DNA of 64,000 nucleotides from Streptomyces sp. NBC_01775 (GTDB lineage Bacteria > Actinomycetota > Actinomycetes > Streptomycetales > Streptomycetaceae). Where the stretch lies: assembly GCF_035917675.1 (NCBI RefSeq), contig NZ_CP109104.1:7006001-7070000 (forward strand), written 5' to 3'. The notes beneath the pieces are model-generated. The model searched no databases and had not been told where the DNA came from. It saw only the letters and a list, made by a program, of their open reading frames with translations. The position numbers were made by a program, and so were the translations under genes. Numbering within the stretch: position 1 is the first letter of the stretch; each line of letters begins with the position of its first letter. Of this stretch, positions 12,932-17,357 are shown one piece after another.

Positions 12932-15900
12932 CTACTGCTTGCGGAGGCGGAACTTCAGGGAGAGGGGCTCGTCCTCGAAGGTGGGGCCTTCCAGCTCTTC
13001 CGGGGAGCCCTGGGTGAAGTCCGCGGCCAGGACCTCCTCGGCGATGAGGGCCGTGTGCTCGGACAGCGCCTGGGTGACTTCCTCGTCGGCCGACTGCCAG
13101 CGCAGCGTGATGCGGTCGGCCACATCCAGGCCCGAGTTCTTGCGGGCCTCCTGGATGAGGCGGATGGCGTCGCGGGCCAGGCCCGTGCGCCGCAGCTCGG
13201 GAGTGATCTCCAGGTCGAGAGCGACCGTGGCGCCCGGGTCGGAGGCCACCGACCAGCCCTCGCGGGGCGTTTCGGTGATGATGACCTCCTCGGGGGACAG
13301 CGGCACCGTCTCGCCGTCCACCTCGACCGTCGCGGTGTTCTCGCGCAGGGCGACGGAGAGCGCCGCCGCGTCCGCCTCGGCGATGGCCTTGGCGACGGCC
13401 TGGGTGTTCTTGCCGAAGCGGCGGCCCAGCGCGCGGAAGTTGCCCTTCGCCGTGGTGTCCACCAGCGAGCCGCCGTCCGCCGGACCGGCGGAGGCTTCCG
13501 TGAGGGAGGCCAGCTCCGCGACGTTCAGCTCCTCGGTGATCTGGGTCCGCATCTCCGGGGAGAGGGTCTCGAAGCCCTGGGCCGCGATCAGCGCGCGGGT
13601 CAGTGGCTGGCGGGTCTTGAAGCCGGATTCCGCGCGGCTCGCGCGGCCCAGCTCGACCAGGCGGCGCACCAGCAGCATGTCCTGGGACAGCTCCGGGTCG
13701 ATCTTGCCGAGGTCGGCCTCGGGCCAGGCGGCCAGGTGGACCGAGTCGGGGGCGCCGGGGGTGACGGGAACGATCAGGTCCTGCCACACGCGCTCGGTGA
13801 TGAAGGGGGTCAGGGGGGCCATCAGCTTGGTGACCGTCTCGACCACCTCGTGCAGCGTGCGCAGCGCGGCGGGGTCGCCCTGCCAGAAGCGGCGGCGGGA
13901 GCGGCGTACGTACCAGTTGGACAGGTCGTCCACGAAGGTGGACAGCAGCTTGCCGGCGCGCTGGGTGTCGTAGCCGTCCAGCGCGATGGTGACCTGGTCC
14001 ACCAGGGCGTGCAGCTCGCTCAGCAGCCAGCGGTCCAGCAGCGGGCGCTTGCCCGGCGCCGGGTCGGACCCGGAGGGGGCCCAGTCGGACGTACGGGCGT
14101 AGAGGGCCTGGAAGGCGACCGTGTTCCAGTACGTCAGCAGGGTCTTGCGGACGACCTCCTGGATGGTGCCGTGGCCCACCCGGCGGGCCGCCCAGGGTGA
14201 GCCGCCGGCCGCCATGAACCAGCGCACCGCGTCGGCGCCGTGCTGATCCATGAGCGGGATGGGCTCCAGGGTGTTGCCCAGGTGCTTGGACATCTTGCGG
14301 CCGTCCTCGGCGAGGATGTGGCCGAGGCAGACGACGTTCTCGAAGGAGGACTTGTCGAAGACCAGGGTGCCGACCGCCATCAGCGTGTAGAACCAGCCGC
14401 GGGTCTGGTCGATGGCCTCGGAGATGAACTGGGCCGGGTAGCGCCCCTCGAACAGCTCCTTGTTCTTGTACGGGTAGCCCCACTGCGCGAAGGGCATCGA
14501 GCCCGAGTCGTACCAGGCGTCGATGACCTCGGGGACGCGGTGGGCCGTCAGCTCGCAGCCGTCCTGGGGGCAGGCGAAGGTGACCGCGTCGATGTACGGG
14601 CGGTGCGGGTCCAGGGCCGACTGGTCGGTGCCGCTCAGCTCGCTCAGCTCGGTCAGGGAGCCGACACAGGTGAGGTGGCTCTCCTCGCAGCGCCAGATGG
14701 GCAGCGGGGTGCCCCAGTAGCGGTTGCGGCTCAGGGCCCAGTCGACGTTGTTGTCCAGCCAGTCTCCGAAGCGGCCGTTCTTGACCGAGTCGGGGAACCA
14801 GTTCGTCGCCTCGTTCTCCCGCAGGAGAGCTTCCTTGATCTGGGTCGTACGGATGTACCAGGAGGGCTGCGGGTAGTAGATGAGGGCCGTGTGGCAGCGC
14901 CAGCAGTGCGGGTAGCTGTGCTCGTAGGCCACGTGCCGGAACAGCAGGCCGCGTGCGTCCAGGTCGGCGACGAGGTCCTCGTCGGCCTTCTTGAAGAACT
15001 GGCCTCCGACGAGGGGAACGTCCGCCTCGAAGGTGCCGTCGGGGCGGACGGGGACGACCACCTCGATGCCGTTGGCACGGGCCACCCGGAAGTCGTCCTC
15101 ACCGAAGGGCGCGATGTGCACCATGCCGGTGCCGTCCTCGGTGGTCACATAGGTGTCGTTGACGACGAAGTGGGCGCCGGGGATGTCGACCAGGTCGAAC
15201 GGGCGCTGGTAGCTCCAGCCCTTCATCTCCGCTCCGGTGAAGCGCTGCCCGGTGGCGTGCCAGCCCTCGCCGAGTGCCTGCTCCACCAGCGGCTCGGCCA
15301 CGACAATCTTGTCGGTGCCGTCGGTGGCGACGACGTAGGTGACGTCCGGGTGCACGGCCACCGCGAGGTTGGCCACCAGCGTCCAGGTCGTGGTCGTCCA
15401 GATCATCAAGGACGCCTCGCCCGCCAGTGGGCCGGAGGTCAGCGGCATGGTGACATAGACGGAGGGGTCGACGACCGTCTCGTAGCCCTGCGCCAGCTCG
15501 TGGTCGGACAGGCCGGTGCCGCAGCGGGGGCACCAGGGCGCGACGCGGTGGGACTGGACGAGCAGGCCCTTGTTGAAGATCTCCTTCAGCGACCACCAGA
15601 CCGACTCGATGTACTCGGGGTTCATCGTGCGGTAGGCGTCGTCCAGATCGACCCAGTAGCCCATCCTGGTCGTCAGCTCGGCGAAGGCGTCGGTGTGCCG
15701 GGTCACCGACTCGCGGCACTTGGCGTTGAACTCCGCGATGCCGTAGTTCTCGATGTCCTGCTTGCCGTTGAAGCCCAGCTCCTTCTCGACCGCCAGCTCC
15801 ACCGGGAGGCCGTGGCAGTCCCAGCCGGCCTTGCGCGCCACGTGGTAGCCGCGCATGGTGCGGAAGCGGGGGAAGACGTCCTTGAAGACCCGGGCTTCGA

Positions 15901-16078
15901 TGTGGTGGGCGCCGGGCATGCCGTTGGCGGTGGGCGGGCCCTCGTAGAAGACCCATTCGGGGCGGCCCTCGGACTGTTCGAGGCTGCGGGCGAACACCTT
16001 GCTCTCGCTCCAGAAGTCGAGCACCGCGCGCTCCAGCGCTGGTAGGTCGACCTGGGCGGGCACCTGGTTGTATTGCAT
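12932..16078 (-). CDS. ileS: Isoleucyl-tRNA synthetase
   Basis: This class I synthetase charges tRNA-Ile and edits valine. The frame is open upstream to 16309, but the ATG at 16078 gives the expected 1048-residue protein starting MQYNQVPAQVDLPAL and has a GGAGGAAG ribosome-binding site. The upstream part is the T-box leader. The HIGH-equivalent GAHH is at residues 56-59 after PPTANGMP, and KMSKHLGN is the KMSKS loop. A CP1 editing domain, the anticodon-binding domain and a long C-terminal extension complete the protein. The size and the HIGH variant resemble the eukaryote-like IleRS2 class, which often tolerates mupirocin; this subclass call is inference. Confidence 0.95.
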   Translation of the reverse strand: MQYNQVPAQVDLPALERAVLDFWSESKVFARSLEQSEGRPEWVFYEGPPTANGMPGAHHIEARVFKDVFPRFRTMRGYHVARKAGWDCHGLPVELAVEKELGFNGKQDIENYGIAEFNAKCRESVTRHTDAFAELTTRMGYWVDLDDAYRTMNPEYIESVWWSLKEIFNKGLLVQSHRVAPWCPRCGTGLSDHELAQGYETVVDPSVYVTMPLTSGPLAGEASLMIWTTTTWTLVANLAVAVHPDVTYVVATDGTDKIVVAEPLVEQALGEGWHATGQRFTGAEMKGWSYQRPFDLVDIPGAHFVVNDTYVTTEDGTGMVHIAPFGEDDFRVARANGIEVVVPVRPDGTFEADVPLVGGQFFKKADEDLVADLDARGLLFRHVAYEHSYPHCWRCHTALIYYPQPSWYIRTTQIKEALLRENEATNWFPDSVKNGRFGDWLDNNVDWALSRNRYWGTPLPIWRCEESHLTCVGSLTELSELSGTDQSALDPHRPYIDAVTFACPQDGCELTAHRVPEVIDAWYDSGSMPFAQWGYPYKNKELFEGRYPAQFISEAIDQTRGWFYTLMAVGTLVFDKSSFENVVCLGHILAEDGRKMSKHLGNTLEPIPLMDQHGADAVRWFMAAGGSPWAARRVGHGTIQEVVRKTLLTYWNTVAFQALYARTSDWAPSGSDPAPGKRPLLDRWLLSELHALVDQVTIALDGYDTQRAGKLLSTFVDDLSNWYVRRSRRRFWQGDPAALRTLHEVVETVTKLMAPLTPFITERVWQDLIVPVTPGAPDSVHLAAWPEADLGKIDPELSQDMLLVRRLVELGRASRAESGFKTRQPLTRALIAAQGFETLSPEMRTQITEELNVAELASLTEASAGPADGGSLVDTTAKGNFRALGRRFGKNTQAVAKAIAEADAAALSVALRENTATVEVDGETVPLSPEEVIITETPREGWSVASDPGATVALDLEITPELRRTGLARDAIRLIQEARKNSGLDVADRITLRWQSADEEVTQALSEHTALIAEEVLAADFTQGSPEELEGPTFEDEPLSLKFRLRKQ

Positions 16079-16360
16079 CGTCGGGGCTTCCTCCGGCGGA
16101 CATCGAGAAGATGCTGGTCTTCGTCTTCCGTCGGAGGGACGAGGCGGCTGCCCTTCCGGCAGCGGACCCGCGGTACCACCCTCCTTGGCGGTGGGCTGTG
16201 CCCTCCGCCCCCTCATTGGGACGGCGCTGCCGGGTCTACTCGCTCCGGGGAGCTTTCTTCCGGCGGCTCCGGGGTGATCTTCACATCGCGCTCGCCCCCG
16301 GGCTTCCACCGTCCCCGGGTCGCTCCTGGCCGCACACGGACGCTACTCGTCCCCTTCATA
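16079..16360 (-). promoter_or_regulatory. T-box riboswitch leader of ileS, translational type
   Basis: On the minus strand the leader carries the T-box core AGGGTGGTACCGCG at 16182-16169, which binds the uncharged tRNA acceptor end. An ATC (isoleucine) codon at 16278-16276, in GAAGATCACC, is the likely specifier. Downstream, CCTCCGACGG (16137-16128) can pair with CCGCCGGAGG (16099-16090) with one mismatch, hiding the ileS ribosome-binding site. The GTCCCT beside the first arm can instead pair with the T-box AGGG. There is no terminator with a U-run. Uncharged tRNA-Ile should therefore free the start site. Translational T-boxes upstream of ileS are known in actinobacteria. The 5' boundary is approximate. 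Confidence 0.9.
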
Positions 16361-16459
16361 GCCTCTCGCCGCCCCCAGTGTACGGGGCTTCGCGGGCCGC
16401 GGCGGAGCGGTTTTCGGGCGGCCGGGCGGGGCACAACGCTTGCAGACCGGCGTGCCCCG

Positions 16460-16488
16460 TTGCCGAGCGCCTGAAGTCGATTTATCGT
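16460..16488 (+). promoter_or_regulatory. Candidate promoter of the DksA-type gene
   Basis: TTGCCG at 16460-16465 and TATCGT at 16483-16488 are 17 bases apart, a good match to a housekeeping promoter. It lies about 50 bases upstream of the start at 16539 and reads away from the ileS leader. Confidence 0.45.
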
Positions 16489-16538
16489 TCCGGACACGTT
16501 TCGCGAGCAAGATCACAAAATGTGAAGGGGCCGCGGTC

Positions 16539-17357
16539 ATGGTGGCGAGAGAGAGCGCCGCGAAGAAGACGGCAGCAAAGAAGACCACACACAAGGCCGC
16601 GGAAGCGAAGAAGGTCCCCGGCGAGGCGGCACCGGCCAAGAAGACCGCAGCCAGGGCGGCACCGGCCAAGAAGGCGGTGGCGAAGAAGACGGCGGCCAAG
16701 AAGGCTCCGGCCAAGAAGGCCGCCGAGGCGGAGGGGGCGGCGACGTCCGAAGGGACGGCGCAGTCCGAAGCGACAGCTCGGGTGGAGGAGCCGGGTCGGG
16801 CGCCGGAGGCTGCTTCGGCGTCACAGAAAGCGAAGCCGGCCCGGAAGCAGACGGCGGCGAAGAAGACGACGGGAGCCAAAACGGTGGCTGCGAAGAAGAC
16901 TCCGGCGGCGGCGAAGGCCGAGGCGGTGCCCCCGGCACGGAACGCCGGAGAGCCGGTGCCCCCCGGCGAACTGGCGGTACGTCCGGGCGAGGATCCCTGG
17001 ACGGCGGATGAGGTCGAGGAGGCCCGCGCGGGGCTGCACGCGGAGGTCGAACGGCTCCGCGCGGAGATCACGAGCTCCGAGGAGGCGCTCAACGGTCTGA
17101 TGCGGGACTCGGGGGACGGCGCGGGGGACGACGACGCCGACACCGGGACCAAGAACATCACGCGCGAGCACGAGATGTCGCTGGCCGCCAACGCGCGCGA
17201 GATGCTCTACCAGACCGAGCGGGCGCTGGAGCGGCTGGACGCCGGGACCTACGGGCTGTGCGAAAACTGTGGCAAACCGATCGGAAAGGCCAGAATGCAG
17301 GCGTTCCCCCGGGCCACGCTGTGCGTTGAGTGCAAACAGAAGCAGGAGCGCCGCTGA
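16539..17357 (+). CDS. Lys/Ala-rich protein with DksA/TraR-type C4 zinc finger
   Basis: I use the ATG at 16539 (272 residues), preceded by GAAGGGG; a GTG one codon later is also possible. The first roughly 145 residues are low-complexity repeats of the AAKKT/APAKKA kind, like histone H1 tails and likely DNA- or RNA-binding. A coiled coil follows ([19 protein letters not shown]). The C-terminus has the DksA/TraR zinc finger, with cysteine pairs in CENC and CVEC. DksA proteins act in the RNA polymerase secondary channel, but the acidic coiled-coil tip of true DksA is not evident here. A transcription or nucleoid role is inference. The gene lies 44 bases upstream of lspA. Confidence 0.85.

Follow-up and report, generated by a model that had tools for sequence, protein, structure and literature searches.

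A probable translational T-box riboswitch for isoleucine in the ileS leader of Streptomyces sp. NBC_01775, and T-box leaders in related bacteria

We analyzed a stretch of 64,000 nucleotides from Streptomyces sp. NBC_01775 (contig NZ_CP109104.1, positions 7,006,001 to 7,070,000; hereafter, the window), in which the minus strand carries an ileS gene preceded by a T-box leader at about 16370-16079. The protein encoded 3' of the leader was identified as IleS by a profile search (TIGR00392, 873.7 bits versus a cut-off of 621.4). The Rfam T-box model RF00230 aligned along model positions 1-219 with 16368-16132 of the minus strand (49.1 bits, E = 1.2e-9), and this was the sole RF00230 match in the genome at an E value of 10 or better. 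The elements of the locus are as follows, from 5' to 3'.

16377..16382, minus strand: TACACT, a likely -10 promoter element (function judged from position)
16271..16354, minus strand: Stem I, long form (RF00230 alignment; consensus fold of 31 chosen leaders)
16276..16278, minus strand: specifier ATC (isoleucine), within GTGAAG-ATC-ACC (read from the sequence)
16229..16264, minus strand: Stem II with S-turn-like motifs (GGAAGAAAG / GAGTAGACC) (RF00230 alignment, consensus fold)
16208..16223, minus strand: Stem IIA/B region, TCCC AATGA GGGG (RF00230 alignment position; short stem in the consensus fold)
16187..16209, minus strand: Stem III region, GGCGG ... CCGCC (RF00230 alignment)
16169..16182, minus strand: T-box sequence AGGGTGGTACCGCG, core AAGGAGGGTGGTACCGCGG (read from the sequence)
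16133..16184, minus strand: antisequestrator, GGAGGG 16184-16179 with CCCTCC 16138-16133, and GCG 16171-16169 with CGT 16141-16139 around the bulge
16090..16137, minus strand: sequestrator hairpin, CCTCCGACGG 16137-16128 with CCGCCGGAGG 16099-16090
16090..16094, minus strand: Shine-Dalgarno (SD) sequence GGAGG, 11 bases upstream of the start ATG
12932..16078, minus strand: ileS, isoleucine--tRNA ligase, 1048 aa, start ATG 16078-16076 (TIGR00392 and reading frame)

We searched RF00230 in 61 genomes of the genus and 99 of the order (156 different genomes), all of which exhibited some match at an E value of 10 or better. Among the 180 loci obtained, IleS was encoded downstream in 153 and absent in 27, and accordingly a T-box preceded ileS in 153 of the 156 genomes (153 loci from 153 different genomes). 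The order genomes G073, G075 and G079 had no ileS T-box match and contained other T-boxes only. In all 153 ileS loci, the core AAGGAGGGTGGTACCGCGG, the partner strand TCGTCCCT, ATC and TGGT were kept, and the strands of the antisequestrator hardly varied.

The original prediction had proposed an intact T-box core and a candidate ATC specifier, and both held: AAGGAGGGTGGTACCGCGG is present in a leader that RF00230 matches end to end, and ATC lies at 16278-16276, ahead of IleS, within a pattern (GAA, one or two bases, ATCA) found in 153/153 ileS loci. However, the consensus fold of Stems I and II, which was computed from 31 leaders hand-picked from the 153 and exhibited compensatory changes in 11 of 30 pairs, also paired two specifier columns, which would be expected to stay unpaired in a functional specifier loop. 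Stem I contains AGTA (16347-16344) and the distal loop GACGGTGGAAG (16313-16303); a distal motif was observed in 151 of the 153 loci, and the leader thus has the distal stem and loop that the ultrashort form lacks. The Stem II motif was found among the same loci in 145 (5' part) and 136 (3' part). As for Stem III, only its inner hairpin, GGGC-ACA-GCCC, formed in the minimum-energy fold. The TGGT at 16178-16175 in the T-box is complementary to the ACCA end of a tRNA, and the tRNA-Ile(GAU) of this genome ends in ACCA, as determined by a tRNA family search in which 30 of 60 tRNA matches were examined; a pattern search of the genome for tRNA-Ile gave 0 matches.

Upstream of the T-box, TACACT or TACAAT was found in 152 of the 153 ileS loci. 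Conservation of the hexamer (TACACT, 16382-16377, in the window) makes a transcript start near 16370 probable; this lies some 10 bases past position 16360, where the element had been thought to end. No conserved -35 element was recognized at normal spacing upstream of TACACT. About 31 bases before TACACT, the window carries a GAAAACCG-like motif (16415-16408). Of 150 loci inspected, 103 have such a motif, 92 of them at this distance; it is too distant from TACACT for a usual -35 box.

The gathering score of RF00230 is 93 bits, which is a database listing rule and not a biological feature. The suggested check against the Rfam model therefore returned a clear match by E value, although one below this score; with 49.1 bits falling short, no entry is returned when the window is scanned under Rfam defaults. 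The cut-off was exceeded in none of the 61 genus, 99 order or 148 class genomes sampled, compared with 2 of 14 control genomes; default Rfam annotation consequently misses these T-boxes. At an E value of 0.001 or better, RF00230 nevertheless matched 77 of the 148 genomes of the class sample. Among the best matches listed for this sample, 25 loci were new; the best hit downstream was ileS in 22 and an aspartyl-type enzyme in three, one of which was weak (L323, 87 residues).

We computed the folds available to the 3' domain. Its minimum-energy fold (-47.2 kcal/mol) contained the sequestrator, in which every SD base paired with the CCTCCGACGG arm with a computed probability of at least 0.987, whereas an enforced antisequestrator fold (-44.9 kcal/mol) lay approximately 2 kcal/mol away. 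In the computed folds the two structures are mutually exclusive and share the strand CCTCC. The GGAGGG of the T-box takes CCCTCC, and therefore the T-box and the SD sequence, both of which contain GGAGG, compete for one strand. The idea of two exclusive pairings thus stood, with corrections to its geometry: GTCCCT (16140-16135), which had been described as adjoining the sequestering arm, overlaps it by CCT, and the competing helix, described as AGGG with CCCT, is the larger GGAGGG/CCCTCC helix plus GCG/CGT across the bulge. The sequestering pairing itself was recovered between CCTCCGACGG and CCGCCGGAGG, with 9 of 10 positions paired and A16131 mismatched opposite C16096.

The folding energies were compared with those of shuffled sequences. 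The 303-nt leader folded little better than its shuffles (z = -1.29, 5/100 as good), as did the 126-nt 3' part (z = -1.73, 11/200 as good); the sequestrator hairpin formed in the minimum-energy fold of each. Taking the last GGAGG as the SD sequence, we found that it paired with the upstream arm in 104 of 105 distinct 3' segments (from the 153 loci), compared with 827 of 2100 controls in which the sequence upstream had been shuffled. In the single exception (L034), an in-loop GAAGA had been taken for the SD sequence, and a CTTCGTCG-type helix was still present in the fold. Since many shuffled controls also pair, SD pairing alone is weak evidence, and since the energies are little better than those of shuffles, the claim is carried by conservation and covariation and not by folding energy. 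Among 141 same-genus sequestrators, 59 exhibited the A-C mismatch, 53 a bulged A at the same place, 21 a GTT variant and 8 other forms; the kept mismatch or bulge (112/141) looks as though the stability of the hairpin were tuned.

We further analyzed covariation of the sequestering helix, using shuffles that ignore relatedness. In the order set (54 sequences aligned of 55 arm types, with L111 left out and L034 represented by a longer stretch of its leader), 89.2% of the cells were paired, compared with 85.2% in shuffles, and 29 cells were changed on both sides, compared with 9.3. The covariation score was 0.151 versus 0.089 (0/500 shuffles as high); five pairs exhibited two-sided change (10/500 as high) and 14 further pair types occurred (8/500 as high). 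However, 22 of the 29 two-sided cells fell in two pairs, one of which changed mainly within one clade, and two SD pairs were invariant. Of the 26 class loci, 22 were folded, leaving out the three AspRS loci and L331, which comes from a same-genus genome, and in their own best folds 19 of these 22 segments paired the presumed SD sequence with the arm (L318, L321 and L324 did not).

In the class set (27 sequences: the 22 class loci plus five from the order, with L111 and L047 excluded), 89.3% of the cells were paired versus 76.5% in shuffles, and 30 versus 8.8 cells exhibited two-sided change. The covariation score was 0.393 versus 0.171 (0/500 shuffles as high), and it was at most 0.152 in slid registers, a comparison that, unlike the shuffles, does not ignore relatedness. 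The numbers of pairs with two-sided change (109/500 shuffles as high) and of pair types (42/500) were not exceptional. The variation mostly adjoins the SD core, and covariation appears clearer in the class set than in the order set. The lack of covariation that had been named as grounds for abandoning the prediction was thus seen in neither set.

These results support the view that the ileS leader is very probably a translational T-box riboswitch for isoleucine, as had been predicted; the identity of IleS, the match of ATC and UGGU to tRNA-Ile(GAU), the occurrence in 153 of 156 genomes and the covariation all point in this direction. By analogy with T-boxes described in the literature, tRNA binding, the direction of switching and translational control might be envisaged as follows. 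By default, CCTCC would pair with the SD sequence GGAGG, and little ileS would be translated. Uncharged tRNA-Ile would bind through two contacts, its anticodon pairing with the Stem I specifier ATC and its free ACCA end with the UGGU bulge of the T-box. The bound tRNA would stabilize the antisequestrator, in which the T-box GGAGGG captures CCCTCC, so that the SD sequence would be freed and more IleS would be produced. Charged tRNA-Ile would be unable to stabilize the antisequestrator.

We also considered that this T-box acts on transcription through Rho-dependent or other non-canonical termination, the SD hairpin being secondary. RNA can become accessible to Rho when a leader blocks its translation, which would favor such an arrangement. 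However, as originally claimed, the leader contains no terminator: three terminator-like sites were found in 15900-16700, all outside the leader, and the longest T run between the T-box and ileS did not exceed 4 in any of the 153 loci. Moreover, the covarying 3' helix includes the SD sequence itself, and we regard action on transcription as improbable. The weak z-scores and the frequent SD pairing in shuffled controls would also be expected if the T-box were a relic, its hairpin a by-product of GC-rich sequence and ileS constitutive, but the two-sided changes in the hairpin and the invariance of the core, specifier, UGGU and partner strand in every ileS locus make this very improbable. The ileS frame has no stop codon as far upstream as a GTG at 16309 (ORF 12932-16309), but a leader peptide or a longer N-terminus of IleS can scarcely be entertained: the SD sequence and ATG at 16094-16076 fit, and the distance from the T-box core to IleS residue 1 ranges from 71 to 126 bases among relatives and falls in all three frames (67, 51 and 35 loci), so that there is no common extended IleS frame.

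The ileS T-boxes of Nocardia farcinica and Mycobacterium tuberculosis have a truncated Stem I. Translational control (predicted here), tRNA-Ile, the Stem II S-turn and Stem IIA/B are common to these and the present leader, as far as the available portions of two sources describe them (PMC7583486, PMC10651847). In the former review, Stem I is described as intermediate or ultrashort in most translational T-boxes and as long in a few, and a naturally truncated Stem I is noted in Actinobacteria (PMC7583486); the Stem I in the window, long and with a distal loop, differs from the latter. Compared with canonical T-box leaders (RF00230), the full-length model match is alike, whereas the present leader has no terminator and scores below the gathering cut-off. 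The mechanism is not new: according to the accessible part of a 2005 paper, candidate T-boxes precede ileS in several Actinobacteria, with hairpins that sequester the SD sequence in place of terminators (PMC1262725). The gene, the phylum and the SD-hiding proposal are the same, and relative to that part of the paper our additions are covariation across many genomes and the energies of the two folds. For the T-box database, the available part of its paper describes a search of actinobacterial reference genomes using a class II model of its own, without prediction of sequestrator stems (PMC7778990). In the limited literature collection searched, we found no Streptomyces ileS leader that had been studied experimentally. 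The element in the window is thus a well-conserved but ordinary T-box.

The 27 loci without IleS precede, as judged from reading frames, genes for aspartyl-type (21) or seryl-tRNA synthetases (6), and the specifiers read by eye were GAC in 21/21 and TCC in 6/6, respectively. Together with a further search, they are grouped as follows.

L002-L007, L031-L033, L035-L039, L046, L061, L104, L109, L113, L114, L116 and L211-L268: Asp-type T-boxes, GAC with UGGC/UGGU, before second, nondiscriminating-type aspartyl-tRNA synthetase genes
L040, L063, L102, L112, L115 and L136: Ser-type T-boxes, TCC, before second seryl-tRNA synthetase genes

Profiles confirmed the aspartyl type for L004 and L031 (aspartate--tRNA(Asn) ligase). 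The fragment at L063 was indicated as seryl type below the cut-off, and the second seryl genes passed the serS cut-off in whole genomes in 6/6 cases. A housekeeping serS was also present in 6/6 genomes tested and a bacterial-type aspS in 7/7, and the genome of the window has one serS and one bacterial-type aspS over the cut-offs. In genome G040, approximately 3 kb separates a seryl T-box from an aspartyl one. The loci L211-L268 encode relatives of one aspartyl enzyme; in 49 of these 58, a T-box core was found at most 420 bases upstream, with GAC in 48 of the 49. Sequestration of the SD sequence in the Asp-type leaders was not supported by folding (8 of 39 segments, a lower rate than the 488 of 780 in shuffles). 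In 43 of 49 Asp-type leaders (L211-L264; counted without a shuffled control), a GGATCAT that follows the T-box is complementary to ATGATCC at the start codon, and judging from the sequence a possible alternative in these leaders is sequestration of the start codon rather than of the SD sequence.

The neighbors of the spare aspartyl gene (a radical SAM gene, a sub-threshold cupin-like match, an amino acid permease and a transposase) did not settle its role, and the available part of PMC9495366 held nothing bearing on it. Neither spare AspRS genes nor a T-box at such a gene is new, because the accessible part of PMC4206432 describes extra AspRS genes in Actinomycetales and its reference list includes a T-box-controlled case in Clostridium acetobutylicum; actinobacterial T-boxes at spare aspartyl genes may be new. 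The limited literature collection searched contained no paper joining T-box, Streptomyces, seryl-tRNA synthetase and riboswitch, and none joining T-box, Streptomyces, aminoacyl-tRNA synthetase and self-resistance.

We tentatively suggest, as a picture that is conceivable yet somewhat short of probable, that the ileS switch is one of a larger, under-recorded group of long-Stem-I T-boxes in these bacteria, a group that has spread to Asp and Ser; patchily distributed second synthetase genes, perhaps inhibitor-resistant spares, may be switched on when their tRNA empties, perhaps via a hidden start codon. For Streptomyces, the present analysis gives the exact bases of a testable two-state switch. 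A default Rfam scan would list no T-box in the class sample (0/148 genomes over the cut-off), and the T-boxes with Asp and Ser specifiers suggest that in these bacteria the class extends beyond ileS.
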